NCBI GenBank assembly: GCA_020091685.1
Contig: CM034603.1
Location: 18,476,611 to 18,540,610 of the forward strand
Direction of reading: 5' to 3'
DNA: 64,000 nucleotides
DNA from: Lutjanus erythropterus
Taxonomy: Eukaryota > Chordata > Actinopteri > Lutjaniformes > Lutjanidae
Under the pieces are notes generated by a model. That model did not search any database. It was not told the origin of the DNA and saw nothing but the letters and a program-made list of their open reading frames with translations. Shown here piece after piece: positions 10,005 through 59,000 of the stretch. The position numbers were made by a program, and so were the translations under genes. Positions within the stretch are counted from its first letter, which is position 1; every line of letters starts with the position of its first letter.

Positions 10005-10036
<32 letters not shown>

Positions 10037-10053
10037 GTAGTAGTATTAGTATT

Positions 10054-10111
<58 letters not shown>

Positions 10112-25100: not shown

Positions 25101-28100
25101 TATTTAAATTATTTTGACAACACAACAGTATTCAAACTGAGATTCATCACATCATGTAATGTATTTAAGAATGTATAAAAATGATCTTAATAATAAATCC
25201 AATAATGAAATAAACGTAATTGGGAAAAAAAAATCAATAGGTATATAATTATTGTATGTGCCTAAATACATGCTCCCTTAACAATGCATTCAGTATAGAG
25301 TTAGTGTCACCTTACCTATGACATAAGCATGCTCGTGAGGATCAGTGATACTGAGCAGGGAGGCACCCTGCTGTTTGCAGCTAGTTTCAGCCTGGTGCCA
25401 AGTCAGAGCGGACTGTGTGTTGAGCTGGTAATACGCTCCGGTTGTTGGGTGTATATCCCAGCCTTCTTTGGCTATAAATGTATACAAAATATAGATTTGT
25501 TATTTTTACCACAACGTAAAGTACTCCCTGTAACCTAAAGTGGTATATTTAAGTTTTCAATAAGTGAATGTGAAGAAAACAACAGTAAACTGGTGTAGGC
25601 CCTAAATTAAAGGATAGCTGCTGATAGTCACAAAATTTGGCCACTTTTATAACCCCTTTGTCAGCTTTTTTAAAATATATATATATATCAAGTAACCTCA
25701 AGAGCAGACCTTAACTCATTTCCAATTAAGAGAGTAGCAAAAATGTTTAGGAGAATGTGCTCTGTGTACCTAGCTGTAAACTCAGTTTACAAGAGTGCAC
25801 ATCTGGATCCTTTGTTCGTGACACTTCACTCCCACAGTCCATACAACAGCCTTAAAATGTTTTGTTTATGAACTTACAGGTCGATTTATATGCATATTGA
25901 TGAGATGATAGCAGCTTGAAGAATATTAATAACTGATGATAAAGCTCAGTAGAGTCAGTTAAGTTTAGCTTGAATCCATAAATGTATTTAAATACATAAA
26001 TTTATGATGTCCTTCACATGGAAATGAAGTAGCAACACTGGCTCTTGAAAGCTTTCATGAATCACATATTTTTAATCAGTGTACACGGACACTGTGAATA
26101 TGGCTTTCTATCACCAAAATATTAAAACAAAAGCTTTCATAGGCAGTACTCACAAGTAACTGGGCAGAAGCCCCAGCGTTCACTTTGAAATTTTGTTTCT
26201 ACCGCACACCAAAGACGTTTTTCTGAGGAGTCGATCAGAGTGCAGTCTGAGTACCACTGGTCTTTGTACTGGAAGGGAAACATGCATGGCATTCCAGCTG
26301 CATTTCCACCAATAGTATAAAGTTCTGTGAGAGGTGATAATAATAAAGAAAGATTAGCTACAAAATGTCTGCACCTGCAGTAATTTACCTTTTCATAACA
26401 ACACATGATAAACCACTTTAAAGCATGGTGTTAAAATCTATTTTAAATGCAAGGTGGAATCTTCAGAATGTGTTTTGCTTTGTGTTTTCCACAGTTCAAA
26501 TGAAGATTTATTAAACAGTTATGACTATATGTCATATTTTAAGTAAATAGAAATGCATGAGTAGCTGTTGACAGATTGATCTTCTGTTGAAGCTAGCATG
26601 TAAATATCATGTTTAGCATAACCGTAGGTGTTAAAACATTTTCTTGACAACTGTCATCTTTATTGTTTTACTTTTGTACTGGTAATTCAATTAAAAATTG
26701 TTGATTTTAGCGTGGACAGTACAAGCCCTTCAAAAACAATACAGTACTGTACCTCTGAATGTTCTTGTGCAGGCGCCACTGGATGTCCCTGAAATTGTGA
26801 GATGGTTGTTGGGTCCTACTGTTTTGGAGAGAACTGCTGTGTTATCTGCAGTGAGCTCAATGTAAAGCTCTTGGTCTTTAAGGGCAAGCGCTGTCTCATT
26901 CCTGCATTCCCACTTTTGGAGTTCGCTGGTTTCGTCACAATCATAGAGGGTTACTTCACTTCCCACACTTTTCCCCTGGGCTCCAAGGCATTTCTTCCTT
27001 TGTGGAACCAGAAGTCGGTCACCAGTTGTCCAACGTATGTCACTGCAGTCGTTATTTGTTTTAACCAAACAAAAGCCAGTTGCCCTGTTAGTTAGTTGAA
27101 AGGGTGAATCTGTCGAGAAAAATGACACATTTTTTACTCTTTATTGCAGGCGTATTAGAAAAAAACAGTTTACTAATTTTACTAGGACTAAGATTATCAG
27201 AGGAAAGTGAAATGTATAAACATGTGTCGTTGGCATATGAATGGTTGGATATATTATAGGCTTGGGTGATTGGACAGATATATTGACTATTAACGATGGG
27301 CTGAATCCATCGCTGTTTGCTTCTTGGCCAAATTTGGGATGATATTTGTCATTGTATTTTGCTAATGTAATGATGAGGAGTGACAGGTAAATAGCCTGCA
27401 GAGTTAAGACTCTTTGCACTTTTTTCACGTAGTGAACTAAGGATTTAATTCAACCAAACCAGAGTTTGTGATTGTTGCAAGAATGGACAGACTAACAAAG
27501 ACAGATTTGGTGACTTTTACTTTTTTTTTTTTACACGTTTGTCTGAATGAAGTGTTTTTTCCATCAGTGTATTTCTCATCAGATCCACACCAGTTTAGTC
27601 GCTGACCTTTTTTCTTGTTTTGACTTAGAATGGCGAGTTTTGCTGATTGCTGAATTTACATAAAGGGTTCAAAATCCTGGGTTGTACATTTTTATCTTTG
27701 TTAGCCACATTGCAACAGTATGACCATATTTTGGTCGACTATATAACGGATAAGCTAAGTTATTCCTAACCAGCAAGCACATAAACCTGGCGTTGAATTT
27801 CTACAAGACAGCATAAAATTATTTACTCATCAAATTAGTGTAGCAAACACAAGAATCATAGTAATGCTGACAAGAATGGCCACTGCTGTTGAAATGACGT
27901 CCATCTGTAATTGGGCATGTCCAGGCATCTTTCAGAGTGAGGTAACATGCCAAGAGACAGAATGATCTGCGCATGTCTGAATGTTGAAAAAAGCAGTGTC
28001 ACACGGTGGCAGAGGAAGCACATCCTCTGCCATCCTTTACCATTCTCTTTGCTTAAAAGATGTCCTCTGAAAATGTTCAAAAACAAGCCAAAGAAAACAA

Positions 28101-34683: not shown

Positions 34684-35058
34684 TCACATAGTTCCAACAG
34701 CAGGCTCACAGTTCTCTTCCTCTGCATTCTGGACCAGTATATTGCTGTCAACCACATTGGGTTGGGTCTGCCCATTGCTGAAGAAGAGTGGATTATCAAA
34801 GGCGGTTAATTTGGCAGGGATGGGTAAGCGATGACGATTCTTCTTGAAGAGGAAGAAGGCAATGACTGCTCCCATGACAATCCCAGTTATGACTATCACA
34901 ACTGCCAAAGCAATGTGGCCACGGCCGGATAGTTCTGCAAAGATTGAAAGAGAAGATAATGATTAGCTGCAAGAACACAGTCATAATTTTGAAGAAGATG
35001 AAGAGTTGTTACTTACGAGGTCCTGGTGGTGATGATGATGATGCTATTGATGGTAATA
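34684..35058 (-). CDS. mrc1: Gene B exons 30-31: stalk, transmembrane segment, cytoplasmic tail
   Basis: Exon 35017-35058 (14 codons, VLPSIASSSSPPGPR spanning the junction) is a Ser/Pro stalk. Exon 34684-34934 gives a 23-residue hydrophobic span (residues about 1374-1396), a KKNRHR stop-transfer cluster and a roughly 50-residue tail ending PAVGTM before TGA (plus-strand tca 34684-34686). The tail carries FDNPLFF, equivalent in place to the aromatic internalisation motif of MRC1, with Phe where mammals have Tyr. An acidic stretch EEEN lies near the end. Confidence 0.93.
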
Positions 35059-38000
35059 CTAGAGAGAGAGAAGGCAAATGTGAGTTATACTAAAATCATT
35101 ACTAGATGATATAAGCCTGATAATGGGCCAACCTGATATACAGGAAAAAAAAGAATGTTGGGCATGACACATGCTTGTTTTCCCCATATAGTTAGTCATT
35201 TTGGAAAACAGCAATACAGCATCTGGGAAGCCTCATGGTGTCTGGACAGTCCTGACAGTCCAGGAGCACCGAGCCCTTTTAAATGCACAGCTGTAAACAT
35301 GGCGTTGTGAAACAAAAATGATTGGTCCCTGGCATGTGAGCGATCACTTACAAGCTTCACACAATCCTTGAAAGACAGAAAGCTATGAATCATCAGGCCA
35401 CAATGCGTAGAGTTAGAGTTCACACACCATACAGATAGCTTGCAGCAATTTTAATGAACATTTCAATCTAACAGAGATCAGGCATTGTCAAATCAGTGCC
35501 TGACGATTGTTAAATCATTTGACAATGCCTGACGAAGATCTCGGTTAGACTGAAATGTTGCTCAATAAAAATTGCTGCAAGCTATCAGAACAAATGCAAA
35601 TCTTTTGCCTGATTCTTCCTCCAGTTTGCATTTTGAAGGTTGAAGTCATAGCTAGGCTGAATGGCAATGATCACCTAATCTGACACAATCATCTTCAAAG
35701 ACGAGAATATTGTTGAGAATATATTATTGAGTCCACTTGAGAACAATGATTTTACCTTTGGGTGTTTTGCAGATGTATGGTCTAGAATAGTAGGAATGGT
35801 CTGCCTTCCACGTCCCATCTGAGGTAGTAATCCCGCCAAATTTTTGATCAGAGGGTTGATATTCATCCCAGTTAGTGTAGTCCATTACTGCTCTGTCCCA
35901 CCACAACCACTCTCCTGGAGACAAAAACATATTTTTTCTTGTTTAGTTTTGTTTAATTTAATGCTCTTAAGATACTGCAGCTCAGTAGTTCTCCTGGTGT
36001 TCTTGTGCAATAACTTAAAAATACACATTATAAATCAACAAAATAACCCTTATATATATTTTGTTTTTCTTCATTAGTTGTTCACCAAGCAGTTTTTCTT
36101 TTTTCTTAGTCGTTTCCCTTCCATAGCTCAATATTTGTTTGGAAGAGCAGAAAATGTGACTGTACCTTTGTTATTTTTAAACAGGCCAATCCAGAAAGAG
36201 GAGTGGTTGTCCTGAAATATTTTTGCTTTTTTTTGGATGAAGTCTTGTTCCGTGGGATCTCCAATGCTGGCTAGTGATCCACCTTCACAAAACAAAAAGG
36301 CCTTAGTTAAAGGTACATGCATTTTAGTGCCTAAAAATATCTTAGACAATTCACAGACAGGACTTACCATGTCTTGCACAGCTAGTAGATGCATCTGGCC
36401 ACCTTTTTTCTTCTGTGAAAAATATGTAACAGTAACCCCTAAATGGTATCCAGAAGTTATTACGACCTGTGTTTGTTATATCTGGGTCTTCAGGGCAAAC
36501 ACCTGGAAAATCAGGTGACTCTGTTGGTGGTACGTCTGTGAATGAGAGAAACAGAAATTATGCTGGGCTCATCTAATTTGATTTTTTCACAATTGGCACT
36601 TACAATTTGACAAAATAAAACTGTTACATCTAAAAATATAGTATATATAAATACATACAAAACAAAGCTCAGGATTTTTTTCCTATCTTTTAAAACACAG
36701 AATGATTTTAAAATGACAGGCACTCCTGTGTACTACAGTGAAATATAGAACAGACACTCTGGGGTGTTATGGGGTCTAGAGGGTTAAAGGGTAACTTAAA
36801 ACCATATGATACTAAAATAATCTTGCACAATAGGAGGTATTGCAACATTTACAGGATAATAGCTTAAGTTAAGGCATGCCAGCATTGAAGATGAGTTACG
36901 TAGTCATTTATTTATGTTATCAACTGTTTGTTAGTTATTGGACGTACCTGTGGACTTCATGCAAACACTGTTCATGGTCTGGTTACAGGCAGCGGTCTTC
37001 CATTTTCCATCCACATCCATGTAGACGCAGGGTTTGTCTCTACCCGGTTCATTTGGACCCCAGTGAGAAAATGTCATGTGCCAGCCATCAATGTATCTGA
37101 AATACCCCTTAGTCTGAAAGCAAAGATTAATCAAACTGCATTCAGCTTCATTAAGCAACAAAATTATCAAGAAAATATGTAATCTTTGTGATTTTTAAAG
37201 CAATAAATGATGAACATCCTCAGCCATGTTAGCATTGTAGCTGTATTGGTTAGTCCACCACTTTGGTCCAGATAGAAATATCGTATCAAATATACTGTAA
37301 CATTTCCTACAACAATTCATGTTCCCCAATGCAGGCACTGTAATCACATTGTATTCCTTTAACTTTTCATTTACCACCATTATTAGGTCAAAAATGTTTG
37401 TCCAACTCTTTGGTTTATGACTTAATGCCAAAACTAATGTTATTCCCATCAGCATTAGCTATACTTTATGTTAAATAGTTGGCATGATATTATGCTAAAC
37501 ATCAGTAAATTTTTACAGTAGTCTGTAGTTACAAACAGGTTAGTTGTGTTAATTTTACTACTTTGAGCAGTTTGAGAGGATTTCTGGACTGTACCTCCTT
37601 TTTGTTCATTCCAATCCACAGAGGAGCTTTGAGATTCAAACTCAGCAGCTCAACATAAGCCTGTGACCACTCATTTCGCAGGCTAATGAGTTTAGCGCCG
37701 TCATCTTCACAGTGCTTCTTGGCTGCATCCCAGGTCATTTGTTGAGTAACAACCTTGATTGAATCATTAAATATTCTGACATAGTCGGTAGAAGTTGTAA
37801 GTTCAGGTGAGTCGGGGAAATAAGATTCTGTTTAGGGTGAGAAATTAGACAAATTTAGTTTTCTGTTCACCTTAGGGTCAGGCTGTTGGTTAAAAGCTTA
37901 AGAGTTAAGAGTTTTTTCCATTCCATTCGGTTTGAATTGGCCAAAGTCCAACACATTTTAATTTTTTATTGTTGAAAGGCTGACTGAATCACAGTTTCTG

Positions 38001-41000
38001 TCATTGAGAAACATTGATTCAATGTTGCACAGTTGATTTAGTACACTTAATCCGGCTGGACTGGGACTGTTCAGCAAAATATGCACTTGTGGAAGATGCT
38101 GTAGCTCAGCTCTTTGAGAAGCACATTAGGGATTGCTAAAGATTTTCAAACATCTTTGCTACACTACCAACTTACTCACTACCTTTAACCTCAAGTATTG
38201 AACATTTACATGTCATCACCCTTTAAGTTGATATGGTAAACTTGTTTGCAAACCATTGCTTATTTACACAACCACTTATTACAGAGCAACATAAGCTTTT
38301 ATTTGGAGTCTCTTTTTTTGGCCACCTGGCAAACAAAAGTCCAGTCTCTTTTTTTCTCTGTATTTGGTCTCTAACAACTCCAGAGGGAAAAATCTAGCCC
38401 TTTAACTGCTAAATGCTCCACTGTGTTCACCAGCTAGTCACTAAGGGTGTTTGTCTGTTGTTTAGTAGTTCTTTTTTTCTTTTTCTTTCTTCTTTTTTTA
38501 AACAGCATTTTAACTGAAAACATCTACCGTATTTTCCGCACTATAAGGCGCACCTAAAAGCCTTTAATTTTCTCAAAAACCGACAGTGCGCCTTATAATC
38601 CGATGCGCCTTATATATGGATCAATATTGGTCAATTATGGCTACCGTAGTCAGGGGGCATCGCTGAAGTAACAGCGGTAAAAACGGTAAAGGGGAATTCC
38701 AGTCCCACACCACTTGTGTGTGTATAAAGACCCCAAAATGGCACCTTTCAAGAGACACGCTTACGACGCAGAGTTCAAACTCAAGGCTATCAGTCACGCA
38801 GAAGAACATGGGAATAGAGCAGCAGCGAGAGAATTCAACAACTGACTGACTTATCAGGGCCCCGTTTCCCAGAGCCTTCGTAGCGCTACGTGCGTCGTAA
38901 GTTGTATTTTAAGGTCTCCCTTAAGGTTGTCCCAACTCTGGGAAACAGCCCGTAACCTTAAGGGAGACCTTAAAATACAATTTACGACGCACGTAGCGCT
39001 ACGAAGGCTCTGGGAAACGGGACCCTGACTGTTTTGTGGACATGCCCTTTAGCGCAGCTCCATCTAGTGGATGCATAACGCAACCCCAGCCACTACAGTA
39101 GTTTCTATTCTATGCGCCTTATAATGCGGTGCGCCCTATATATGAAAACAGTTTTAAAATAGGCCATTCATTGAAGGTGCGCCTTATAATCCGATGCGCC
39201 TTATAGTGCGGAAAATACGGTACCTGCTTCAGCTAAAAACAATTCTGGGAGCCATGAGATTGACCCAAAACAGTAAAATTATGGGCAGGGCACTTAATGA
39301 GCCTCTGTAAAGCTGAGGGTAGCTGCAGGCTGTAGAGATAATTATAAAAAGAATTCATCATTAGATGTGAACCTTTCATATTGTCACATTGTATTCATAT
39401 CAGAATTTGATGCATTTTATTGCAAAAAATTGATTATAGTAACTTCAAGAAATACAAACTAAACAAAACAGGAAAATTTGCTAGTTCTTACCTCAACTCT
39501 GCAACTGTAAAATAATTTTTAGACATGAGGGAATGTTTTAAAGAGAAAGATGGGCTCACCAACATCTCGAAGACAGACAAATCCATTGGTGTCATTGCAG
39601 GACTTAATTTGCCATTTCCCAATACCAAGGGAAGGATTTGTATTGATCACAACACATTGTGACTTGGGAAACACAAAGTGAGAAAGAGCCCAACGTTATT
39701 ACAGAGTCATGATAAAACATTTTCTTTCTGGGACTACAGCCTACTTCTAACAGCATTAATAGATAGATGATCTGGATAGTAAAGGCCTACTGTTCAATGG
39801 AAAAATATAAATATAAATTATTTACTGTTCCCTTTTCAAAGAAATTATGTCAATTAGGGCATCTGGTTCATATATAGACCAAGGTCAATCTTGCATGGGC
39901 AGTCCACAAAAATACATTAATTACATAATTAAGGTACCATCGGCGTTCACCCCAGGGCCAGATGACTCTGCAGTAATTACAGATATTTATCAGCAATTGA
40001 AGAGAGGTTAATTCTCTCATTGTTACAAAAGTGTACTGTCATTTGTCTCCAAGTCATGACAACATAAGTGGCATATCTAAATTGAAAGTGCTTCTTACCT
40101 CTAATTCAAGCTCGAAAGGATGAAAGGATCTTCGGAAACGCCCAAATCCCTGCAATGTAAACCCAGATAGTCGAAATGTTTATAAATACACAAAATATAG
40201 TAATAAATACTGATGTTACACACTCTGCAGTGTTTCACACACAGACTTGGATGGGCACTCAAATATATTTTGCAATCCATTCTGGACTTTTTATTTATTT
40301 ATTTATTTTTCTATCCAAAAGTGCAAAACCATGCATGATTGACCACTGGACAATCTCCCCTCTGACCCTCCCTCACTTGTTTGTTCTGCTGTGTGAGAAC
40401 ACACTCTGCAGAGAAACACACAGAGTGTCTTTTTTATAATGCAGGAGTGTCAAACTCATTTTGGTTCAGGGGCCACATACAGCCCAATTTGATCTCAAGT
40501 GGGCCGGACCAGTAAAATTAAAGCATAATCGATCATTCTGGCCATTAATCAAGTAATCAGATAGGAAATATTGTGTTCTGCATTTTTTCTATCACATTAC
40601 TTGCTTGCTTTATTTGAGAACAACGGTAATATACAAAAGAGAAGATAAGACAGTTCTATTAAAATTGCTAAAGTAAAAATACTCAGTAAAGTAGCTTTAC
40701 TTTTACTGTTTTCACTTTTTACTTTTTTCAAGTACAAGGTAAAAGTAAAGGTAGTAATGTCTGCAGAAACCACAAACAGAAGCAGTCACCAGAATGCTTT
40801 GTTCATATGTTAAAATCACAACATTTTTCTTCTGGAGCAGGACAGACGCTCCCAGACCCCCAACAGGGGACTGGTTTACCAACATGCCACCTTTTTCTCC
40901 TCTTATGAGTTTGCAGGTCTCTATTTAGTAATCAAGAAATACCAATAAGAATACCATTGATTTTTCAAAAAAAGGAAACAGTAACATGCAAGATTTTTAA

Positions 41001-44000
41001 ACTGTAAATGGTATTTATGTTGTGGTATTAGTGCTTTTACTTAAGTAAAGAATCTGAGTATTTTTCCATCACAGCAGGTCAGTGATCAGTGTTTCATTGA
41101 CTCTGTGGATCAGTGAATAGTGTTTTATTTATGGCAGCCTGCCACATTAAAAACATCGGCACCAAGACATGATTTTCTATTTTTGGAGCTGCGCACCTTT
41201 TTCGGTCGTGACTAGAAGCTAACTCTTTATTTGCACAACTCTCACGAGATTTATGTTTGTTATTTTTACTAAAATGTCAAACTTGCGTGATCTTTTGCAA
41301 GTCTAGGGTTCCCTTCTAAACACGACCCTCTCTGCAGACTGTCTGTAAACAGCATGATGTTACACTCTGCAGTGTTTCACACGAAGACTTTATTTGTGTG
41401 GACACTCAGTCCGAGAGGACGACGGCATCAGTGATTGATTAGTGATCAGTCTGCCCTCCTCTCCTCCCTCACCTGTTCACTCTGCTGTGAGAAGGTCTGA
41501 AAGTTTCTCACAGAGAAACACAGACTCTCCTGTTTTACATATAGGCCTCCTTATGCAGTTGTTTAATTTTATAAGTGCATCTGGTTGGTGTCGATATCAT
41601 TAACCGTCATGTTAGTTTCGACTGTTGTAATAAACTCTGTCATTAACAACAGTCTCCTCCACACGCAGCTTCTCTGCTGCTGTGAAAACTGAATCATGGG
41701 TGGATTAATTTATAAGGAAAAACCCAAAATGCGAGTTAAATTTTGGCATTTTGGCTTTGTAAAACATCCTGCTGATGAAGAAAGTCAATAGATCAGATAC
41801 AGACAGGGTAAGAGAATCACACTGACCTCCTCTGTGTGTGTCTGTACTGTACGTGTGTGTATGGAGGAGCTGCATTGACGCAGAGAGGAGATGCTGCAGC
41901 TGTGTGATAATAAATTACATCAAAATTTAAATGTCGGCACTCATCAGTACTCTGGACTTTAATAACCCCCACATGCGAAACACAGTGTGCTGTACAGTTT
42001 GACACCCCTGATTTAATGTATATGTCTACTTATGCAGTTGTTCTTTCTGTACTCCTGGTTGGTGTTGGTGTCATCTGGTACCACACTGGCTTTGTTGCTC
42101 ACAACAAACGTCCTCCACACGCAGCTTGCCTGCTGCTGTGAAAACGGATTTGTGGGTGGAAAAATCTAAATGTGAGTTGTGTTTTTTTGGGCGTCTTTAT
42201 GAAACATTCTGCTGATGAAGAAAGTCAACAGATCAGAGAGAGAGAGAAACACAGTGAGCAGGGCAAGCCCCAGAGTGTGTGCACTAAGAGACCACAGGTG
42301 TTTGTGTGTGTGGAGAGAAGACAATTGAAGAGAGTTTAATTCTCTCATTGTTACAAAAGTGTACTGTCATTCGTCTCCAAGTCATGACAACATAAGTGGC
42401 ATATCTAAATTGTAAGTGCTTCTTACCTCATAGTAGACAAAGCCATCATACCTTCGGAAAGGGCTGGATCTCTGCAATGTAAACCCAGATAGTTGAAATG
42501 TTTATAAATACACAAAATAGTAACAAATACTAGAAATGCATTCAACTCTTCAACATAATGAAAATAGATTTTGTCTTGTTGATGCATGCTACACTCTTAT
42601 ACATTCTTACACCTCAAGTAAAATTAAATATGAACCTATTAACATAATGTCTTGGGGCATATATTGTGTCTTATTTTAAACACACACAATCAGCATCACA
42701 TCATAAAACATAATTCAAGTTGTGCTCACTTACTTGACCAAAGTTGAAATATTTCCTTGGGCGCCCATTAGTCCAAAAAAATGTATATCCATTTGCACTG
42801 TGAAAACCAATCCAAAGGTCTGAAGTAGGTGAGGTAGGGCCAGCCATTTGACTCAACAAAAACACTGAAATATAACAATGGTTAAAGGATCATATATCTG
42901 CATGGAAGTTTTCTTAACTTTTAAAAAAAAAATGTATACATATAACATATAATCAGTGAATATTTTATCCCCAAAAAGAGAAAGGAAAAAAAAAGTTAAA
43001 CAAACCTTCCTCATGTCTCGAGGAAATAGAGACCAAGTCTCCTCCATTATCTTTGCAATATTTCCATGCTTTTTCCTGTGTTAATTTCTGGTCGTTAACG
43101 ATGCTGTAACACTAGAGGTGAGGAATGATAATTTGATTTACAACTTCTGAAAATACATTGCAAATACAGCCAGTCAAACATTGTCCTAGTTAGTACATCA
43201 ATCTGAATTTCACATGACAAAACTACCTCTTTTGACATCTTAAAAGAGCATTAGATTAAAAAAAAAAATCGTTATAAAATAAAAGACCCATGTCATCACA
43301 GACATTGAGAGATTGACTCTGTCATGCATCAGTTTTATTCCAATCAATTCAGCACAACATGCTTAAAGGCTAAGAGTGACCTCTGACCTTAGACTTAAAT
43401 TTTTTCCATTGGGGTGGGCAGCCACCTTTAGGAGCCTCTGTGGGTGGCGCTGTGGTGTTGACAGCAGGCGAGACATTCCGTTTACAAATGGATCTGTGCT
43501 CATGCCCACAATTATAATCATGCCAGTGCCCTGTGAACAAATTCAAGACATGAAAATTAACACTTCGTCAAATATGATGTTTCTTTCAAATATCAGGTTA
43601 AAGTTTTAATCCTTAAGATTTTCACAAAATCAAATCCAATTTTTGATACAGTTTGTGGTTAGTGTTTTTATGCAATAGCCATTCAGTGTATTCACATTCA
43701 GTAATTACCTCCACCACTCATTCTAGTAGTGGAATTTACAATAACATTCATATAATGCAGTCTTATGTCATTAATAGCTTCAAAGTTAACTGTCTTTTCA
43801 CCCTATCAGAGCTGTATTAAGTAGGGATGGGTGTTATTATAATTTTATCTATACTGATACAGCTTATCAGTACTGATACTACTTTGTAGGGCCCCTGGAT
43901 AAACATTTTCTTAGTCGACCAGTAGTCGCAGTAAAGTCACTAGTCAACTTGTTGTTGCATGTTTATGATCTTAATTTCATTATTTTATATATTTGTGGTG

Positions 44001-47000
44001 CATGAAGCAAGCCACCTATTAAATGCAAATGGCAAAAGCACCACGCCTTCTGTCCTTGCTTGTCCCACCTGTCTTCATTGTCCTCTGAGTCAGAGTCTGT
44101 ACATCACGTCAGTAAAGTTATTTCCAGTAACTGACCACCTTCAGTCACAGAGGCTGTAGCCCAGTCTATATGATGGCTAACTGACCTATCTGACTAATGG
44201 CAGCTACAGCATAGTTAGCAGCAGTACACCAGTGACTTAAATGCTACAAGAGAAATGATGATCGCAGTCCCTTCATAACGTGACCAGGTGTCCAAGTTTA
44301 TGTGGGACTGCAACTCGTTTTTATCCTTTCTCTCACATCCCACCTGGGTCTAGTTTTCAAACGTTAAACCACAGCTGGACAGACAGATTTCTAAAATCTG
44401 GCTGTTATCCAACGGCTGTTAAGAAAGAAGGGAGGGCTGTCATCATAGGGCATTGTTTGGCATGGCTCTTAGATAAGAGGGACATGAAGAAGAAACTTAA
44501 ATACTACACATGTGTAATTAAAATACTAGTTAAAGTACTGTAAATGATAAAGAAATATTTATCTTATGTAACACCATTTGTAACAGTAACTTAATTCTAC
44601 AAGTCAATAATAATGTGTAATTATTATACTGAAATATATAATGTACACAGTAAACTGCACAGCTTAATAAGGAAGACAGAATAGTGAAGTAATTTACTAC
44701 AAATAACCCGAAAATGTAATGTGTATAGTAACTATGGTTACACTAGCAGCAGGAAACAGCAACAACAATTTGTTACATCTCGAAATTGAGGAACATCCGA
44801 TGAAAATAAAACATGTTTTTAAAGTTATTGTAAGAAGTGTAATGGCATTACTAAGTACTGATATTGGTACTTAGTATCAGCAAGTACCCACATGTAAGTA
44901 CTTGTACTCAGTCTGAAAAAAAGTGGTATTGGTGCCTATTTACTACCCTACACCCAACTGGGCATCACCTCAATGTCACAAGCTGATTTAGGCAGATGAT
45001 GATGGAAACTACTTGCCTGGAATTCAGACAAAACTGCCAAGCTCACGCTTTCATTTGCTCTGGCAAAGAAATGGAAATGCAGCTACAACAAAAACTGGGA
45101 AACTGCTCATCTATAGACTATTGTGTGCTACTGAATCAAACACAAGGCAAATATAGAGATGTTACATTTACTACCAAAATTTAAAACTAACCCTTATCGT
45201 GAGTAACTTGTCCCACACAAACATAATCTATGTCCCACATTCGATTTGTTGGGATCTGGTCACCCTAATCGTTAATCAAAAGTGTGTTTACAAAACAAGA
45301 CAACTGTTACTTTTCGTCATATCATTGCAACTATTGCTAGTCAAGAAATCAGCCACAGTGAGCTGATATATGAAGAGTTGCGGGCAACACGTTAAACACT
45401 TTGAACTCTTTAAACATGCACCAGCTGCTCTTATGTCATATTTTAGACAAAGAAGCTGCTCAACAAGTGTTTGCTTTAGTAATAATGCACTTGCTTTTAC
45501 CATGTTAACCACAGGTCTGTCAAACCAGGACTAAAATCTTAAGGACTGCAACTTCAAGACTTTGTTTAATTTGTCAATTGCATGTATGTCAGTGAATGTG
45601 AATCATATTTTACTTTACTCACCAGTATAAGAGCTCATGACAGCACAGGTCTCAAAATTCTTTAAATCAGGCTGACCTACATCCCACCTTTGAAAGACCA
45701 CCGGAGAACCATTCATCCACCTTAATGTAACACAGACAAATAAGTTGTTTTTTTTTTTTTTTTACTAAAACAAAACATTGTGAAAATATTACTAGCATAA
45801 TGATATGTGGAATTAAGTTTAAAGGGACAGTTTGCCCCCAAATCAAAATACATATTTTTCCTTTTGCATGTAGAGCTATGTATTAGAGCTGCAACTGATG
45901 ATTATTTTCATAGTGGATTAATTGGTTGATTATTTTCTTGATGAACTGATTAATAGTTTTTTGTTTTAAAATGTCAGAAAATGGCAAAAAAAAGTCTATC
46001 TACATGCCAACTGGGACTCGCAGCTGCTGCAAAAAAAGTAGGCCTTGTGTGACAATCATCATATGATTTATACGAAACTTTCATAGTGTGGTTTACGCTT
46101 GATATACGAGAACATAATGTATGATTGGTGTTCTGCAGCGCCACATATTGCATACAGCCAGTGACATTGCACTCCCTCACGCAATGTCCAAAATGCATGA
46201 AAATTCAAAGCTGTGTCAACTGACAGGTGTCCAGTAACAACCCCAAGGCTTCCTTATCCCTTTACACAGACAGGGGTGCAAGGGCCCATTTATTACTGAT
46301 TTGCGCTTTAATTATTGTTGCTGTCGGGCAGAAACCTAGTATGTCCAAGACTATTACTTTTCAGGAAAAGAAAAAAAAAAGTCTTTAAACTAACTGAATA
46401 CTGCTTAGTACTAGTTAGTACTTTTCAGTGGTGTGGTTAAATATTTGTCAAACCCAGAGACATAAAGGGTGACCATAGCAATGATTTATGAAAGATAATA
46501 AAAATGTCAAAATATGGAGATACAAAGTTTGCACCAGACAGCATCTTAATGTTTGTTCTTTTTCCAGGTACAAAAATACAGACTTGTGAGATCCTGGAAC
46601 AAAAAGAACAGCTTCATGTTGTGATCAGTAACTCTGTACTCTCTAGAATAAAACCCTCTTATTCATATCTAATTCATACTCACTCAAATGTTCCATCAAG
46701 GTCTACTGACAAGCCTATCCAGTAAGACCCATAAGTCCTGGATATCTGCACACACAGATAGACATGGTAAAGCCAACAGTTTTTACATATCAGTTTGTGC
46801 TGAGGTTAAATGCCAGATAATTGTCACTGCTTACCTGTTTCCATAAAAAGACACTTTCAGCTTCACTGTCAATGGTTACCAAGTCGCCATGCCTCCTCTG
46901 GCAGAAATGGCGAGCGTCTTCCATGGCCATGGACTTTGCGTTAATATAATACTGATTTCCCTTCCATTCTATCCACCCATCTGAGGTCTTATTGTAGTCT

Positions 47001-50000
47001 GCAAACATTATAAAGATGTAATATATCTTTAATTATATCATCAAGCCCTCATACTCGAAGAAAAATAAATGATTCGTCATTGCCTTCCATAATGATCCAT
47101 ATAATCGTTCTAAGAAGGATTCATATGAGCAGTTTCTAAACTTGTATTGTTAATTTGTGGGTAAGTTTAAGCAATTTAAACTACTTGGGTAAAGTCACAG
47201 AGGGATTGGTTGAAATACGGAGAATTTCCAGACTTGACTGTGAACAATTTTTAAGTTTTTTCAAGCTGTTCACAGCGAATAGCAAGAGACAAATATTTGG
47301 ATGAAGGAGACATTGCTGGTGATTTCTCAACTCCATTTTGCTAGGGTCGCGGCACAAATCTCAGACAGCAATATCTCTAAAATTGGGCAAATAATTTACA
47401 TAAAACAGTACTTTACTTTTAGAAAGTCAACTCGAAACTAAAATGAAAGGGAACTGTACTGTAAATATTAAACAAGGAGACAAATTGTGAGATGATATAT
47501 GAAGGGTAGATGCATTTGCAAATAGAAAAACATCATCATCATCTCATTATTTAGTCAAATGTGTTAATGTTTTCATATTGTTTTAAGTTCAAAGCTAAGC
47601 TGTTTAAGTTTAAAGTACAACAAGTGACTAGCTAAGTAGGTCTCAAGCCTTTAACTTTTGCAGTGATTTTTTCCTTCCTTGAATGTTTGTTTAATTGGTT
47701 GTTAAGCAAGGCAAGATACAAAGCATAAACTACATGCAAAACAAATCTGTGTACCACTGACAAAAATCACAGAAGAGGGGGTGCTGTAATAATTAATAAA
47801 AACACTATTTTATCAAAAGAGAAGACAGGACAGTTTACCAATTTTCTGTACTATGTAAGAGAAAAAAACATGCTATTTAATTTCAGTTATACTGTAACCA
47901 TGTTTAACTGAATAATCATGTAAAAATAGCATATTTTTATGTTGTGACAAACATAATTTCCCACTTACCAGGCGTGACTGGGTTTGGAGGGGGCTTTGGA
48001 GTCACTCCTGTAAGGACATATAAAAAAGGTAAAAAAAAAAACATTTAGAATAGATGATTAAGGGGTGGTACTGGCCACCTGAAGGGGGAAACTGCATACA
48101 CCTGAACACACATGAAGAAAATGTTGCTGGAAAAAATAATCTTACTCATTCAACTCTCAACAAAAAGATTTACAAAAGAATTACATGATTTTCTTTGAAA
48201 CCCATCAATTTAGACCAAGACCAAGCTTTACCTGCACCGATCTGACACACCCATCCATTGTACTTCTCACATTGGTTATCATTCCAAGTCTCCCTCGTAC
48301 CCAAGTAAGATAGCAGTATTTCAGTACAAGATTCAACATTATTTTTATTGTTTGGCTCTCCATCTGACCAGTGTTGGAAATTTACCTGTAAACAAACACA
48401 AACAACCGAATGACACATTGATGTGTTTTTTTTTTGTTTGTTTTTTTGTTTGAGTTGCATAAACTAAAATTGATTTACTCAACAACTGTACACAGAGAAA
48501 ACTGTTAACTCACTGGGGATCCATCGCTCCATACAAAACCAGTGACTGGGTCAGGGGCGCTAAGTCCAATCCAGACGGTGTCATGTCTAAAATGGACAGA
48601 ATGCATTAATAATTGAAATATGCAACCTCTGAAAATGTTTGAAGAACAAACATTTTGTAATTTCATTGTTATCTGATAATTCACTTTCCCTGTGCTCTTT
48701 TGGACACTAGCCAACCATTAGCTATCTTTTGCAACCAGTTTTCCCCTTTATTTAATCCCTCCAATCTTATTAAAGGACCAGTGTGTAGGATTTAGTGGCA
48801 TCCAACGGTGAGCTTGCAGTTTGCAAACACATTGCCTTACCCTCTCCTTCTTAGTGTTCAGTAGAACATACAACAGCCACTTAACTTGCAAAACGCCATA
48901 TCAAGAACCAGTGTTTGGTTTGACCATTCTGGGCTACTGTGGAAACATGGCTGTGAAACACAGTGGACGCCAATGAAGAGGATACCGCACCCTCTGTAGA
49001 TATTAACATTCTAGGGTAATGAAAACCTTATACTAATCTTTAGGTGGTTTTGCTCTGCCAAAAAAAATTCAACTAAATCTTACACACTGGACCCTTAATA
49101 TTATTATAATTTAAATATCTGTGCAAATATTCTGTGTGTGTGCAGCATGAAGGGGCTACAACTTACATTTAATTGCGCAACCCTGTATTCTAAATTGATA
49201 AAACAATAAATAACCCTTGATACCTTTATTTAGTAATTTTCCATTTACGGTACTCAAACATGATACTCTGCGAAAGATCATTTTTATCACCTCATATTAA
49301 TTTCAATAAACAGGACACACTTCTAGCAACTGGAAAGAATGAGAATAGTCTTCTTTGAGTATGTGATTTGGACTGGGATAAATTTGCCAAGCGCAGCCTT
49401 AATTGTGTGTGACCAGGTCGTGCTGTACCTTCTCTCTCCCAGTTGTAGCTCAGCATTACTGTGGATGCTGAGCAGGTCTCCTCCGATGGCCCTGCAGTAG
49501 TCTTGGGCTTCATACCAGGTCCTCTTGTTCACAGATAACGGTAAATACACCTTAAACACAAGGCAAGAAGCTCAACTCTGATCGATAATTATCGATATCT
49601 ACCGAAACTTCACTATCGTGACAAATTTTTCAGCTATATCGCCCAGGCCCAGTCCCCTTTTATGCAACGTTACTACAATGTATGTTTGTGTTCTTTAGAA
49701 CGGAGTTGGTCCACTGAGAATGGCTAATGTTACCTGGATAACTGCTATGACTTATGACTAATGCTAAAGGCAATTAAAATAGCCTAAAACTAGAGGCTGG
49801 AAGCAGCATGGATCAGACGTGTTTTTCTCTTGAGATAGCAATGACACGTAGCTGATAACTTGCTAGCTTTGAGCTCAGTGGAGCGAACAGCTCCGCGGTG
49901 GCAATAGATGTAATGTTTTAACAGAAATACTGGCCAGTTTTAGGTGGCTAAAGGGTCATTGTAAGACAAAAACCAGGTCACTTGTTATTTGCTTGCTTGT

Positions 50001-53000
50001 GATACAGTCAAATTTATTTTTCACCTGCCTGAATGGCCAACTGCATGAGGTATTCTACTTGCCTGAACACAGTTTACTTGCACCAGGCAAGCATTTATGC
50101 CGAGCCCTGACTTGGAAACACTAGAGATCTGAAATGTTGTTTGTTTACACTTTAAATGATCATGTAAATTAATGCCTGTAAAGACACATCCCTGTATTAT
50201 AGAGTAGTTATTTTTAGAGTTCAGATAGTTGCATTTGGATAGATGCATTGTTGCTTGACTTGGGACAGATGTAAGATGATGCAGATGTAATTACAGGTAC
50301 AGGTGTAATTTCAGTACTTGAAGCAGCAACATGAAACAATTTTTGATACTGAGAGCGTCACAGGCTGAAACTACAGGAGCTAAACCCAAAACCAAATCAT
50401 AAAAATGTTAAACAGAACCTCCATACTGGGTTTTAGTAGGACTGGCACAAGGGAAACACCATGGCAGTCATCTTTACATGTCTTGATTTGGGGGTTTGTG
50501 TCAGAAATATGTTTCACTCATGGATCTTACCTTAAAGCAGTAGTTTCTTGTTCCCAATGGACTCCAGCCATCTGCACATTTGAAAGAGACAGTAGGGGAC
50601 GGTGCAGGGGTTAAAGGTGCCCCCTCGGCCAAGTGTTTGCAGATGTATTTCTCCCTATTGGTGCAGGGCAGCACATCCCAGAGGCCAGCAAAAATCCCAG
50701 TTGTCATGGCAACACAGCCCTGTTGATGTCCTTGCAGTGTTGATGAGAAATGGTAAATTGTGAGTTGTGAAGCTACTTTTGAACACGTCTGTCAGCAAGA
50801 AATTTTCATTCTCCATACCTGGCATTGCAGCATTCCAGTGAGTAAATCTCACAGAGTCTGTGTTGGTCCATACAAATTGATCAATGTTTTTCTGGTTTGA
50901 GAGGCCAAGCCAGAAGTGTTTCTCTGGTCTTAACCCCACCAAGCTGACAAGGAAGGCATTATCCACCCTGAAAATAATTACACAGGTAGGATTGCAAGTT
51001 TTCTTATGTCAGTGAGTGATGTATAATAACAAACGTGTATACAATACATCCCATTATATCTATTATTTAGAATCAAAATATTTGTTGTTACCCAGTTGAA
51101 ACATCAGCTAAGTAAGAATCTGAGCTCTTGCAGTCATCTTTGGCTTCATCAAATGTCTTTGTCTCTGTCCCTACAAAGTAGCAGTAGGAGCCATGCCTTT
51201 TCCAACCCTGGAATGTAGAAAAACAAACGTAGGAAAATCTTGTTAGGTCGTTTTTCAAATTTCCAGAGAACAAAAGGTTAAACAAAATGAAATGACTGTA
51301 ATGTATCAGGGATTTGACAGGCTTAATTTCATTGACTATTGAGTATTTCACAACATGCTTAGATATTTGGCTTTCACATAACATCTTTCCTTACTCAGTG
51401 TGTGCTTATTTATGAGCCTAAATATATGCCATAACTTTCTTGTGTCAGTCAATTCAATGATACCACACCGTTGCATTATTCAGCATTACATACTGTGAAG
51501 TCACTTTTATTTCTCTAGCACCAAATCATAATAAAATTTGTCTCAGGACACTTTTTATATAGAGTAAGTCAAGACCATGCTCTTTATAATATTACTTACA
51601 GATACCCAATATTTCCCACCAAGAGCAAGCACTAAGGTGACAGTGGTGAGGAAAAACTTCCTTAAAGGCGCAGGAACAGCAATTAAAATTACACATATAA
51701 GATGTCTTCTCCAGATATTTCTGTTGATCTCCTCAGTGCTTGTCTCTTTGTTGAAATTGTGTCCCTTTTAAAATTATAGTAAAGGTTGAGGTTTTGAGGT
51801 GCCAGTAATCATCAGCTGCTTTTTTTGAACCCAGTGTTCAATATTACTGTATTTTGTAGATACAAATTGACCATTAGACAATTTTGAGGCACAAAACCCA
51901 ACACCCACATAAAAATGGCAGGCTTTAACATTGAAGAATAAACCATTGTAAACAGATACGGACACATGCATATAAAATAAAAGAAGTAAAGTTCACGCAC
52001 AAGTTTGCAGCCAACATTCTGGTCCTCCTCATCTCCAGAGGGTTCAGCAGCACTTGTCTTCATACAAATGAAGCCATTTTTCTCACTACACACACGATCG
52101 GCCCAGTTCCCATTCTGAAAGAAAATAGCACAGTAAAATGTAAATCTATTTGGAGATTGGATATACTGACAGATAGGCAAGTTGTAGTGTATGTCATCAA
52201 CCAAAAAGCAGTGTCTTAAAAATGTTCAAAGTTATTGTCATAGATACATATTTAAATTCAGCCAATATCTAGACAGCCAAAAATTAGACCCTTTTGCAAA
52301 ACTATTGATGTTAAAAGCAAAACAAAAAATAAAGGAAGGCTTTCTATAATCCTACACCTAGGTCAAACCATGAAAAACAGAAAAGAAAAAAGAAGCAAAC
52401 ACAAGTGTTTCATCAGGAGTGCATCTACTGTCTTAAATAAAAAACTAATAATTATGACATATAGCTGCATAATTTGCTGGTTTGCTTTGAGGAAGGTTAG
52501 TTTTTATTAGACATTTAGCAATACTTTTTCTAGTATGTAACATTTGTGCCATACCCAGATGTTGCTCCTTACCTCTCCCCTGATGAGAACACAGTCTTCT
52601 TGATTAGTAGTAAGAGCAGGTTTCCCAAACTCCCAGCTGGTGAAGCTGACAGTAGAGTGATCACTCCAGTCAAATAGCCCCTCTGTCGTCCTGTCATTCA
52701 GTCCAATCCAAAGCTCATCAGTGGATGCTGCAGACATGGGCAGAAAAAATATATTGAGCCACTTGTCTGCAGCTAATCTCACATACTACTGAGCCCATCA
52801 GCCAAAAACATTTTGTGCACATTTATGACTGAATACTCAACGACCTCTGGTGGTTGCAGTGATTCACAACTTTTGAAAATTTGTATAAAGCTTATATATA
52901 ACTTATACTGATTGCTGACTCTCTTAATCATTTGTTAGGGGCCATAAGTCATCAACTATTGCTAGTCTAAAACAAGACTTGCCTGTGTTGGGGGATAATT

Positions 53001-56000
53001 TGCAACATGTAACTTCTTACATGCAATTATATAACAAAATTAATTAATTTGTAGTCCATTACAGTTACTTAAATAAACCTGTGTCATTCAGTTACAGTTT
53101 ACTAATCAAAATTTTGAGATTAGAAAAGGATTACATCCGAATTTTCTTTTCTGGTTTCCAGGCAGAGGTCTGCACTCTCCTGGGTTACCTCTCAATTAAA
53201 CCAATGTACTGTATATAATATTTAACATTGTTTATATGAATTGTAGTGATAGACAGATGAAGCTTCACGAAGCTTTGGGTTTTCTTTATATTTGTGCTAA
53301 AAAAGATTCAAAGCCTTGAGTCTTCAAATTCAGCTAACACACTGACATCTTATGGTTTGTAGAAGTTATAGCAGCCCTTCAAGACTAGGGCCTGAGCACA
53401 GCCACACCTCGCTGATATAAGAGTCTCATACGTGTGCCATAAAAGTCCAAGAGGCCTGCATGCAGCTAAATCTGTAGGCTTACCTTTAGTCAGAAATGTT
53501 GCATTAAATAAGCATGTTATTGTGCTGCATGCTAAACCAAAAATATGCATCGTCCAAAATGTCTAGACAAAACAAAAATGTACTAGTGTGGTTTCACTTT
53601 TTTTTTTAATTTAATGGTTGATATTTGTGCAATGTCTGATATGAGTTGCAATGTGATGTGACTGGAGAGTGATATTCACTAAATTGGCCTCTTACTTTTA
53701 TAACATTATTACTTGATATCACAAGGAAATGTTCTCATATTTATGACTGTCCTTCTACTGTAGCATACATCGCCATATTTCTCAGTTACTCTCTTCTCTT
53801 CTTATCCCATTAATGTGTGAACCACATAGTTAACTGTAAAACTTCCAAAACTCTCAAATTGAATAAATTGCTTTCTGAAGCACTTGTGACATTTGAAGCT
53901 TTGGACATCATCAGTCCTGTGACGTTCTTGATTTGACACGAGCTCCGTCATGCTGTTCACAGTTGACACAGCAGGGCAAGCTCCCTGGGCTAGCCAGTTA
54001 GCTTATCACTTGGTGGGGCTAAATACTGAAATGAGTCTTTTAGGGCTGGGGTGATTTGTTGACGTAATCGACACCACTGATAACGAAAATACATTGATTT
54101 GCACAACATGCATCAACATTTGCCGATGTACTGCTGTGCCCGAGCTGCAGAGAGCCTCACTGCGCTAATCTAAAGTGTGGGAGTATTTGAGATGCAAACG
54201 TTTCGCTCTCTTTAAACTCTACAAACTGCATGTAACTTGTCACAGCAGCTTAAATTAATATGCATCACAGCTTCTCATTATAATGTGCTTTATGTGTCTG
54301 TTTTTCAGGATTATGGTTGAAATTATTAAAATTATTGAAATATTAAAATATTAATGAGACAAGGTTTTGGTGATTATTGATTTAGGTAAGTTAACTGTTA
54401 CATTAATTTAATAATAAAAAAAAAAAATGTTTAAAAAATAGTCATTAGGTGCAGCCCTAGAGTCTTTACTGACATTGCAGTGGCACGATAAGCACACTTA
54501 ATATCAACAAGACAGTGCAACATGATGAAATACGGACAGACAATTGGATTGTTGTGCTACATGAACCTGACAGCACACTTTTAGTGACTCTTGCACTGTA
54601 ATGGCAACAGCAGGGAATGAGCAGAGGGACAAGAAGCGGAAACAAATTCATAATGTCAATATATAATTTGAAAATAAAAGTCTGAAAAAGCAGTCTCTGG
54701 GAGGCTGAATAAATCTTTTGTTGTTATAATAATAATTTTAATAATAATTTTATTTATATAGCACTTTTCAAGCTTACGCACAAAGTGCTTTCCATATTAA
54801 AAGATTTACAGAATAAAAGGAAAAAGGCATAAAGATCATATTGAAACATTTAAAAACGCATTTAGAGCAGATAAATACAACATATTTTCTTAAAAACAAT
54901 AAAGCAATAAAACATTAATCATAGTAGGCCATTCTATAGAAGTGAGATTTAAGAAGTCGCTTGAAAGCCTCTGTGGAGTCTGCTGATCTCACATTAAGGG
55001 GAAGACTGTTCCAGAGCCGAGGGGCCAAAGCTGAAAAGGCACGGTCACCCTTAGTTTTAAGTCTGGTCTGAGGAACAGCCAGGAGATTTTGATCAGCTGA
55101 TCTCAAGGGCCTGGCTGGACTGTACAAGGTTAAAAGCTCCTTATTATATTCTGGAGCAAGACCATGAATTGCCTTGTATGTAATTAGTACAATTTTAAAA
55201 TGTATTCTAAACTTAACTGGTAACCAGTGCAGGGATGCTAAAATTGGGGTGATATGACAGGACTTTCTAGATGTAGTCAGTAATCTGGCTGCTGAGTTCT
55301 GGATGAGTTGTAGTTGTGAGACCAAGTGTGAGTTTAAACAGGTAAAAAGAGAGTTACAGTAGTCCAGACGTGACGATATAAAAGCATGTATGACTTTTTC
55401 TGTGTCATTAAAACTGAGCATGTGTCTAATCTTGGAGATGTTTCTTAGCTGGTAGAAACAAGACTGTGTGATCTTCCTGGTGTGCTGTTCAAAGGACAGT
55501 TGACTGTCAAAAGTTACTCCAAGGTTCTTTGTTACAGATTTTACATTGGTGGAGATTGGACCTAGAGAGGACTGTATCTGTAATTTGTGACGTTCTGGGC
55601 CAAAGATCAAAACCTCTTTTTTATTGCTGTTGAACTGTAGAAAATTCATTGCCATCCAGTCTTTGACACTGGATAAGCAGGATTGGAGTATGCTGAGAGA
55701 CTGCATATGCTGTGGCATCGGTCATCTTTGGGAGCGGGAAAAGAGGGGAGTCCCTTTTACGATGTACTCATGATTCCTCTGAAAAGCGCACTACACTGAA
55801 ATGTGTGTTGTGTGTTCCAATCACTGTTTTTATTTTACTCACGTACCATAGCCAAGTTGAGAGATCACAAAGCTGTGGTCCTCCACATTGTGGATGCTGA
55901 CGAGGTCTCCTCCTTCTTTGCGACATTCTCTCTGAGCGTCAGGCCACGTTTTCTTGGTCCGGTTGAGGTAGAAGCACTGACCATTGTAGGGAATCCAAGG

Positions 56001-59000
56001 ACGTGAACAAAATCCTGTCTCAGCAGCTGATCATGGCAAGAACAAATGATTAAGCCACTGATAATAATCACTTAACCAAAGACAAAATAGTAATACAGTA
56101 ACTGATGGACAGCTGTGGTAAAATGGAATAGAATAAAGATAATTTTAGCTAATTATTTTTAGATAATTGTCTTTACCCTCAGTAGGAGCAGCCACAACTC
56201 TATCACTGAAGCAAATGTATCCCAGTTTCTTGGTGCATGTTGAACTTTGCCAGGAGTACTGCACAGCACCATCAATATATGCACAGTTGTGTCCCGGATA
56301 AGACAGTGGATATCCTACAACAAGATGATAGTTGAAAACTTGGCATGATGACATAGACTCAAATTAGTTCTCAGATGTCTTTAAATTAACAAATTAACAC
56401 CTAAAAAAATATAATAGTATCAAATGACACAGTTCAGCACTATTACAGGCCAAAATATGAAGGATAAAGCAAGTAGCAAAGTTCATGGTATAGAACAACA
56501 GCAGAAACAATATACTAATATAAGTAGTTTATAAATGCATACTTGGAAACACCATATTAAAATTAATTGATTCATATAATATTTGCAAAATAGAATGAAA
56601 TGATAATTAATGACTGAAAATGGAGGTGGTGTAATTACAGTCAAGTGATTATTTTGTACATTATTAGAACCAGATTTGAATGCAAACAGCAAGGATGACA
56701 TCCCTTTGACAAATACAGTTGCTGGAATGTGAATCTAAACTGCTGACCAGTCAAAAGTCAAAAAACTTTTATAAATATATGCATTGTAGCTGGGGCCCTT
56801 GCTGTGGGCTGTAAGTACTAAGAAAAATGATTAGTCAGTTTTACAATCACGTGACAACATGGGGTTTATAAGGTAGAAAGGATAAAATGCAGATGGGATG
56901 TATAAGAGATGCAGTAATCTTGTTTTTTTTGTTTTTGTTTTTTTTTGTTTTTTTTTTTGTAGAATAGCAAAACAGTATTTTGAGGTGGAAAGAAAACTTA
57001 CCTGAGTCCCAGTTAAGATAACGGTAAGGCTTCCCATTAATCCACTGCCAGCCATGCTCTGAATCCAGGGTCAGTCCAGTCCAAAGCTTGTCCCCCTGTC
57101 CTCTATCCGCTTGCCCTAGTATTGCTTTTTTTTAAAAACAAGGAATCAAAGACAGTAAAATAATAATGACTAAGGCTCAAACATCCATCACTAGCCTGAT
57201 TTCTGTTATAACAGAAAACTGATAAAGTAGATGTTGATTAAACTGAACTAGCCATCTTACAGACTGGATCACATTTATGTGTTTAATAAATGACAAATGA
57301 TGAAAAGCACTGATGTCTTTTTCCTCAAATATTTCTCTACTTGCCCTCTTTATCAATACATAATTCAGTATAGAGTCAGTGTCACCTTACCCATGACATA
57401 AGCCCTCTGGTGAGGGTCTGTGATGCTGAGCAGGGAGGCACCCTGTTGCCTGCAGCTTTTTTCAGCCTGGGGCCAAGTCAGAACAGACTGTGTGTTGAGC
57501 TGGTAATACGCTCCAGTTGTAATGTGTCTGGTCCAGTGTTCTCTGGCTATGAAATATACAAACAAAAATATGGAATTGCACTTCAAAATGTAATTTTTTT
57601 TCATGATAAATATACATTTATGCCTCCTTATCTACATTGAATGTTAGAGTCTGACTTGGCAGGTCCTAAACAGTGTTGGGCCATAATACATTTCTCAGTA
57701 AGTTGTAATATTATTACTTTATCCAGTGATGAGTAGTGTAAGAGATTACAATTTTCAAAACAGTAATTATTTTACAGCTACTAATCCAAATACCACTGCA
57801 TGGATTAACCACAGTCTCCGTGGTTGTAACTGAGGTCCACACATCACTCAGAGGTTGTTTCTGGCACAACAGACATCTGGATAACTAACAAAAGCTGTTT
57901 GTATGTTAACAGTTCACTAGATAAGCAGTTCAACTTTGGAGCACAGCAAGATACGAAAGTAATATAAAAATGTAATGAGTAATGTTACTGAATTACCTTT
58001 TGTTACCAACTAATAAGTAAAGTAATATTATTACTTTTTAAAGGAGTAATAAGTAAAAAGTTACATTTAATGAGCCATTTGCAGTTTCACTGTACCGGCC
58101 GTGTGCACTTGTGTGCATGGCTTAATCTCTGAGACAAGCATATGCTACCGGCAGTGTACACTTAAAAAAAAGTGCATTGTAGCTATACCCTTCTCTTGCT
58201 GCAGATAAAATAATACTTTGAGGTAGTACTCACAATTAGTTGGGCAGTACCCCCAGAGTTCATTTTCATATTTTGTTTCAACCGCACACCAAAGACGGTT
58301 GACTGAAGAATCAAAGGTCGTGCAGGATGAGTACCACCTATTTTTGTACATGAAGGGAAACACGCAGGGTCTACCATACGCATTTCCTCCAATTGTGTAA
58401 AGTTCTGTAAGGACAAAAGAAGGACAAAATAGTAAAACTTTGTTATTTTGAGAACATCTGTAACTATAATTATTTATATTTTAACAGAATGAAAGAAACA
58501 CTACTTCATCAGATTTATAGAATGAACTTTTGTAGTCTATTGACCACTTCACATTCACCCATTTGCAAACATATTCACATGTTGATGGCACAGGAACTTA
58601 GGGTTCAGTATCCCAAAGACACTTCGACATGTGGGCTGGAGGAGCTGATCATCTGTTTAGTGGACGATCGGCTCTACTGTGAGCCACAGCCATTCGTTTT
58701 AGAATTTAATCAAACCAGGGCTCAACAATGAGGATTGCCTGCTTGCCTGGGGCAAGTAAAATGCTATGTAGGGCAAGTAAATCAGGCAACTAAAAAAAAT
58801 TTGATAATAGATTAACCATTCATGAATGGCAGAAAATGCCCTTTTCAGCCTCTCAACTGTGGAGCTTTCCCACTTTTTCGTTTACCATATTAAGCCAAAT
58901 ATCTTTGGGTTTTAGGTTGACAAAGCAAGGCATTTAAAGACATGTTGGACAATCACTATTTTCTCACAATTTCTAAATTTTGCAGCCTTAGAATAAGCAT

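Follow-up and report, generated by a model that had tools for sequence, protein, structure and literature searches.

Two diverged copies of a CTLD6 loop mini-exon in an MRC1-like gene of Lutjanus erythropterus

We analysed a 64,000-nucleotide (nt) stretch of the Lutjanus erythropterus genome (the window; contig CM034603.1, here C13:18476611-18540610) that carries an MRC1-like receptor gene, gene A, on its minus strand. We observed that the sixth C-type lectin-like domain (CTLD6) of this gene contains two short in-frame exons, a and b, which lie in direct repeats with nearly identical intron sequence and strongly diverged coding sequence. We assign a probability of about one half to the reading that we favour, in which both exons encode working loops, selection keeps the two distinct, and splicing includes either one or the pair. 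Whole-genome searches covered 937.6 Mb. In window coordinates, the parts of CTLD6 are as follows.

43006..43111, minus strand: CTLD6 exon 1, upper edge uncertain (43111 or 43103)
42734..42864, minus strand: CTLD6 exon 2, ending in YFNFGQ, phase 0
42322..42531, minus strand: repeat copy 1, 210 bp, made of 60 nt of intron, exon a and 105 nt of intron
42427..42471, minus strand: mini-exon a, 45 nt, phase 0-0, RSSPFRRYDGFVYYE
39994..40211, minus strand: repeat copy 2, 218 bp, made of 62 nt of intron, exon b and 105 nt of intron
40099..40149, minus strand: mini-exon b, 51 nt, phase 0-0, GFGRFRRSFHPFELELE
39560..39662, minus strand: CTLD6 exon 3, starting with SQC, AAG acceptor, phase 0

Alignment and the chain of exon phases bore out the first-pass annotation in its description of duplicated, in-frame, phase 0-0 mini-exons. 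The direct repeats were recovered as such, with the upper edge at 42531 rather than 42533 and with copies of 210 and 218 bp in place of a common size of about 215 bp. As had also been noted, the splice sites of the two copies match: they are near-identical and of the ordinary GT-AG kind. Both have a CAG acceptor and a donor of GAG followed by GTAAGA, and both are framed by neighbouring exon ends (42734 and 39662) in phase 0. Since 45 and 51 nt are multiples of 3, any combination of a and b keeps the frame, in agreement with the earlier proposal. A scan of this gene A intron for phase 0-0 mini-exons returned five candidates, with b ranked first (9.3) and a second (8.3). The repeat was found at these two places only in a genome-wide search at E ≤ 0.001, a search that skips very common words.

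The difference between the two copies is concentrated in the exon. The upstream flanks align with 58 matching, 2 mismatched and 2 gap columns and the downstream flanks with 102, 3 and 0, compared to 28, 16 and 8 for the exon. Mismatches therefore stand at 16/44 in the exon against 5/165 in the intron flanks (Fisher p = 1.1e-8), and the first 20 nt of the exon taken alone give 6/20 (p = 2.5e-4). A blind two-rate change-point scan placed the best segment at columns 60-100, where the exon occupies columns 60-103, and its score was reached in 0 of 200 permutations, which rules out a chance similarity of the repeats. The claim that exon divergence far exceeds intron divergence is thus upheld, and the boundary coincides with the exon edges; a and b both end in GAG. 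When codons are counted, the copies show 17.2 nonsynonymous differences over 35.3 sites and 3.8 synonymous differences over 9.7, equivalent to a nonsynonymous divergence (dN) of 0.79 and a synonymous divergence (dS) of 0.55, the latter from few sites, compared to 0.03 in the flanks. Silent sites exceed the flank rate (about 4/10 at a rate of 0.03, P = 1.5e-4; 2/5 in the first seven codons, P = 0.009). Positive selection on replacements alone would not lift silent sites, so these data point to an old exon with homogenised flanks, to swapped segments, or to silent counts inflated by multiple hits. Compared as amino acids, a and b show no likeness beyond chance (score matched by 3598/5000 shuffles). 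Simple decay of an exon is unlikely, because decay cannot push exon divergence above that of the intron; a copy in a sister gene, described below, shows the decayed state.

We next considered the protein segment that the mini-exons encode. Inclusion of a alone would give a loop of 19 residues from NF to the next Cys, inclusion of b alone 21, of both 36 and of neither 4. The loops of solved PLA2R, FcRY and LY75 domains have 22-23 residues, counted from alignments, and the long CTLD6 loop of 19-21 residues proposed earlier agrees with them. With exon a included, the 123-residue CTLD6 matched 19 distinct solved sequences at E ≤ 0.001, with chicken FcRY (5e-41, over the whole chain) and PLA2R (1e-35) as the best; among the solved MRC1 chains listed, none extends to CTLD6. 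Exon a resembles the chicken FcRY loop (RYDGFVYYE and RYNGVYVEE; 4/5000 shuffles, or 22/2000 with a shorter string), and exon b has no likeness to it (3617/5000). Only the former was striking among six loop comparisons, with b and PLA2R at 156/5000 and the others at 1022-4426/5000, which suggests that exon a is nearer the old form. The human MRC1 loop in the form we presume it to have gave 1021, 140 and 1165 of 5000 shuffles for a, b and both, and we gave this no weight. An exchange of a and b may affect ligand binding. CTLD6 is without the EPN/WND residues that are present in CTLD4 of gene A, and that we take to be a sugar-binding motif, so such an exchange need not alter sugar binding, and contact with a protein, contact with another domain or an effect on conformation is as likely.

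Genome searches also revealed the CTLD6 exons of two more MRC1-like genes, B and C, in tandem with gene A. Gene B has a mini-exon, B1 (NGEIFHLIRNERRNHYLHSE, 60 nt, C13:18475751-18475692, outside the window), which ranked first of 10 candidates in its intron, and gene C has one candidate (KTRRRPGTFYQRWNE, 45 nt, C13:18553996-18553952). A second copy in gene B, B2 (C13:18475613-18475440), lies head-to-tail directly downstream of B1 at an offset of about 200 bp and is 62.9% identical to it over 178 columns (E = 5e-4). Its acceptor reads CAA in place of CAG; with a weak AAG acceptor the exon would shrink to 30 nt (MDEMELLLHQ), a candidate that ranked third of the 10. We read B2 as a decayed copy; exons a and b carry none of its signs of decay (a lost acceptor). 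In the first-pass annotation, a second copy decayed in other species was to count against the pair; a decayed copy was found, but in sister gene B and not in another species.

The mini-exons of the three genes share 20-42% amino-acid identity with many gaps (dN 0.68-1.46). CTLD6 exons 1-3 share 37-55% (dN 0.28-0.53), two CTLD7 exons 53-69% (dN 0.18-0.34) and the two CTLD2/3 exons compared 78-90% (dN 0.05-0.11). Between genes A and B, for which 18 of 20 exons were compared (two were dropped on coordinate errors), the highest dN values fell in the two CTLD6 exons (0.43 and 0.39). The mini-exon is thus the CTLD6 exon that differs most between the three genes, and it changes rapidly throughout the array; a fast-changing loop exon was duplicated in two of the three sister genes, A and B. 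Along the two proteins, A-B identity is 67-90% in the exons of CTLD1-3 and drops to 38-48% in those of CTLD6.

The flanks of the mini-exons are recognisably shared between A and B1 (0-1/500 shuffles; 86/121 and 90/122 matches) and not between A and C (103-230/500). Since the A-B1 flanks are as alike as those of B1 and B2 (89/121), the duplication may date back as far as the genes themselves. The duplicated units measure about 212 bp in A, without the spacer, and 200 bp in B. When the exons themselves were paired as DNA, the lowest values of ten pairs were 3 (b with the gene C candidate), 17 (a with b) and 31 (B2 with the gene C candidate) per 2000 shuffles; as amino acids, the ten pairs ranged from 403 to 1299 of 2000. 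These pairings do not settle whether the a/b and B1/B2 duplications share a common descent. A donor of exon b elsewhere in the genome was considered and rejected, as the 3' 30 nt of exon b occur once genome-wide with up to 3 mismatches allowed. Among 27 matches outside the array (30 candidates scored), all of which are at most 32% identical, none had the look of a spliced retrocopy from which the joined exons could be read.

The spacer between a and b offers an estimate of age. It is filled by an older repeat that was interrupted by a nested element.

42016..42321, unstranded: left part of the older repeat; the joined flanks align along their length with 41900-41340
40212..40436, unstranded: right part of the same older repeat
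40437..42015, unstranded: 1579-bp element with terminal inverted repeats, nested in the spacer

The nested element, presumably hAT-like, is bounded by an imperfect 8-bp target duplication (CATTAAAT/CATTATAA) and has at least 51 matches in the genome (40 of 1836 candidates scored). It also contains sequence related to the older repeat that it interrupts. Measured against five other copies, the terminal branch of the window copy is 0.040 (5' part), 0.050 (full length) or 0.039 (without CpG columns) substitutions per site. If a and b predate the element, a difference of about 0.08 would be expected of neutral flanks, and 5/165 or fewer would then have P = 0.0075. This favours, without proving, flanks that were homogenised or constrained; a duplication that spanned the element once it was in place is compatible as well.

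We propose that a and b arose when a unit of about 210 bp was duplicated head-to-tail, that repeats were inserted between them later, and that selection would since have held their loop sequences apart. The likeness of the flanks could reflect gene conversion that homogenised the intron and that selection opposed in the exon, or alternatively a young duplication with very fast change of the exon. Selection that keeps the two loops different is our best reading of the exon divergence, and this part of the earlier suggestion of positive selection or diversification stands. The exclusive, splice-switched pair that was suggested with it as a possibility is not supported, since no feature found here forbids a plus b. 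Because the splice sites of both copies are near-identical and ordinary, a, b and a-plus-b transcripts would be expected, with loops of 19, 21 or 36 residues, and exclusion would not be built in.

Other uses of the two copies have to be weighed against this reading. Constant joining of both exons into a receptor with a 36-residue CTLD6 loop would suit the near-identical splice sites, the compatible frame and an exon chain that stays phase-consistent with both copies. We nevertheless consider it rather unlikely, as a loop of 36 residues would be far longer than those of solved PLA2R, FcRY and LY75 domains (22-23), and genes B and C each make do with a single intact copy. Strict mutual exclusion with a splice-switched pair of isoforms, the possibility raised in the first-pass annotation, is improbable in our judgement. 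The copies are indeed neighbouring and homologous, equal in phase and divergent in coding sequence, but double inclusion stays in frame, the sites are ordinary GT-AG with no U12 incompatibility, and the a-b intron is 2277 bp long. No bar to double inclusion was found among a frame break, a short intron, incompatible spliceosomes and a docking structure; docking was sought only via inverted repeats, the one class of structure looked for, and none of six pairs links a and b.

Hardly better placed is the use of one copy only, probably the FcRY-like a, with the other unused or decaying like B2. The decay of B2 in gene B and the similarity of a to FcRY speak for it, but an unused copy should diverge as the intron does (3%) and not by 36%, and the frame and splice sites of both copies are intact. 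An assembly artefact, with two alleles placed in tandem, could account for the very similar flanks. Only about 215 bp are repeated, however, repeats lie between the copies, and an older duplication of the same unit, whether independent or shared, is present in gene B, which makes an artefact very improbable.

Several observations weigh against two working exons kept different by selection. A 24-nt candidate inside the transposon (41496-41473) scores 7.8, close to a (8.3), so splice scores alone are no proof of use. Exon a is like FcRY and exon b is not, so b alone may have changed, and comparisons of fifteen residues are weak for or against homology. The exon is short, with 3.8/9.7 synonymous sites, and its alignment is ambiguous in the 3' half. 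Finally, the element clock is based on 5 copies of the 51 or more matches, and strictly private changes amount to 2.5% (14/563), from which the expected flank difference is 0.05, a lower bound, with P = 0.16.

The identity of the surrounding genes was assessed along the whole window and array.

34687..60002, minus strand: gene A, MRC1-like, with signal peptide, putative cysteine-rich domain (CysR), FNII, eight CTLDs, transmembrane segment (TM) and tail
1..28781, minus strand: gene B, tandem MRC1-like paralogue, cut inside CTLD6 by the window edge

Gene A begins with a signal-peptide exon near 60002 and ends with a TM and tail exon with its edge at 34687; positions 34962-34687 encode a hydrophobic segment and a short tail with FDNPLFF, which we take to be comparable to the MRC1 endocytosis motif. 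On the exon-joined protein, Pfam found fn2 (54.1 bits) and Lectin_C in eight stretches, in line with the earlier assignment to MRC1. Ricin_B_lectin reached 19.8 bits, under its curated cut-off of 29, and the N-terminal ricin-like cysteine-rich exon is conserved between genes A and B. UL45 (38.2 against a cut-off of 27) and Xlink (29 against 27) were also above threshold, and we read both as cross-matches of the CTLD fold; a poxvirus A33R model stayed under its cut-off (21.2 against 22.5). A phase-consistent chain of 28 exons runs through both mini-exon copies; the search took open exons only, which in part explains the lack of stops, and some of the outer boundaries are weak. We count 30 exons in gene A if one mini-exon is included and 31 if both are. 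CTLD1 and CTLD3 of gene B match human MRC1 best among the domains supplied for comparison.

A six-frame scan of both strands of the window gave CTLD matches above 10 bits on the minus strand only, and a tRNA scan of the window found none. Stretches of C13 from 18426700 to 18600499 contain genes C, A and B, with gene C extending from CTLD1 at 18567220 to CTLD8 at 18550006 and gene B ending with CTLD8 at C13:18465096; no CTLD exon of 9 bits or more besides those of the three genes was found in this interval. CTLD8 is without the inner cysteine pair, presumably the usual pattern of the fold, in all three genes (window 35915-35766; C13:18465248-18465096; C13:18550149-18550006). CTLD4 carries EPN...WND in genes A (48385-48242) and C (C13:18558906-18558751) and QPN...WND in gene B (8692-8564), which might alter the sugar choice of gene B if the motif has the meaning we assume.

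Tandem MRC1 genes have precedents, and PMC4229073 and PMC514892 describe the chicken array MRC1L-A to -E and duplicated MManR in Fugu. Gene A shares with this family FNII, eight CTLDs, TM, tail and tandem paralogues on one strand, and putatively the ricin-like CysR. For MRC1, MRC2 and PLA2R, PMC4229073 gives a 30-exon structure with conserved phases; compared to the chicken structure, gene A has an extra intact CTLD6 mini-exon (31 exons) and gene B a decayed one. PLA2R1 of the L. erythropterus genome (contig C1:15310844-15312367) likewise has a long CTLD6 loop of similar length before the Cys, but splits it over exon 2 and exon 3 (SPIEPKSYLT followed by EDEWLTGFADEPLC, across one phase 0 intron), where gene A uses a mini-exon. 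A scan of that intron found no phase 0-0 mini-exon candidate, so the mini-exon need not be one of the ancestral 30 exons.

Dscam arrays (PMC3236188) resemble a and b in that duplicated exons with a common phase lie next to one another in a cell-surface protein of immune type, but they hold dozens of copies, compared to two copies here with no sign of enforced exclusion. That study detected neither gene conversion among Dscam exons nor positive selection between the paralogous ones; the introns around a and b, by contrast, are far more alike than the exons. In ASSET in snake venom genes, surface segments change radically within exons and introns remain more than 85% similar (PMC2711939). Divergence restricted to the exon, with conserved introns, was also found here, but in ASSET the changes separate gene copies that encode secreted venom proteins, and here they separate two exons of a single receptor gene; judging from the place of the loop in the CTLD fold, the changed segment probably lies on the protein surface. 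Among the matches listed from open-licence papers, nothing dealt with duplicated or alternative CTLD6 exons in MRC1.

More broadly, the three-gene array might keep a hypervariable CTLD6 loop cassette, an idea that we regard as speculative. Mini-exons would be duplicated repeatedly and driven apart, gene conversion would hold introns and splice signals uniform, failed copies such as B2 would die, and a vertebrate endocytic receptor would have germline-encoded recognition loops selectable by splicing. The contrast between exon (36%) and flanks (3%), with its edge at the splice sites, is a compact place to ask if selection filters gene conversion exon by exon, and its recurrence in a sister gene makes it traceable across fish genomes. 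With both copies in use, a single MRC1 gene would give receptors that differ in one loop, a simple route to innate-receptor diversity.

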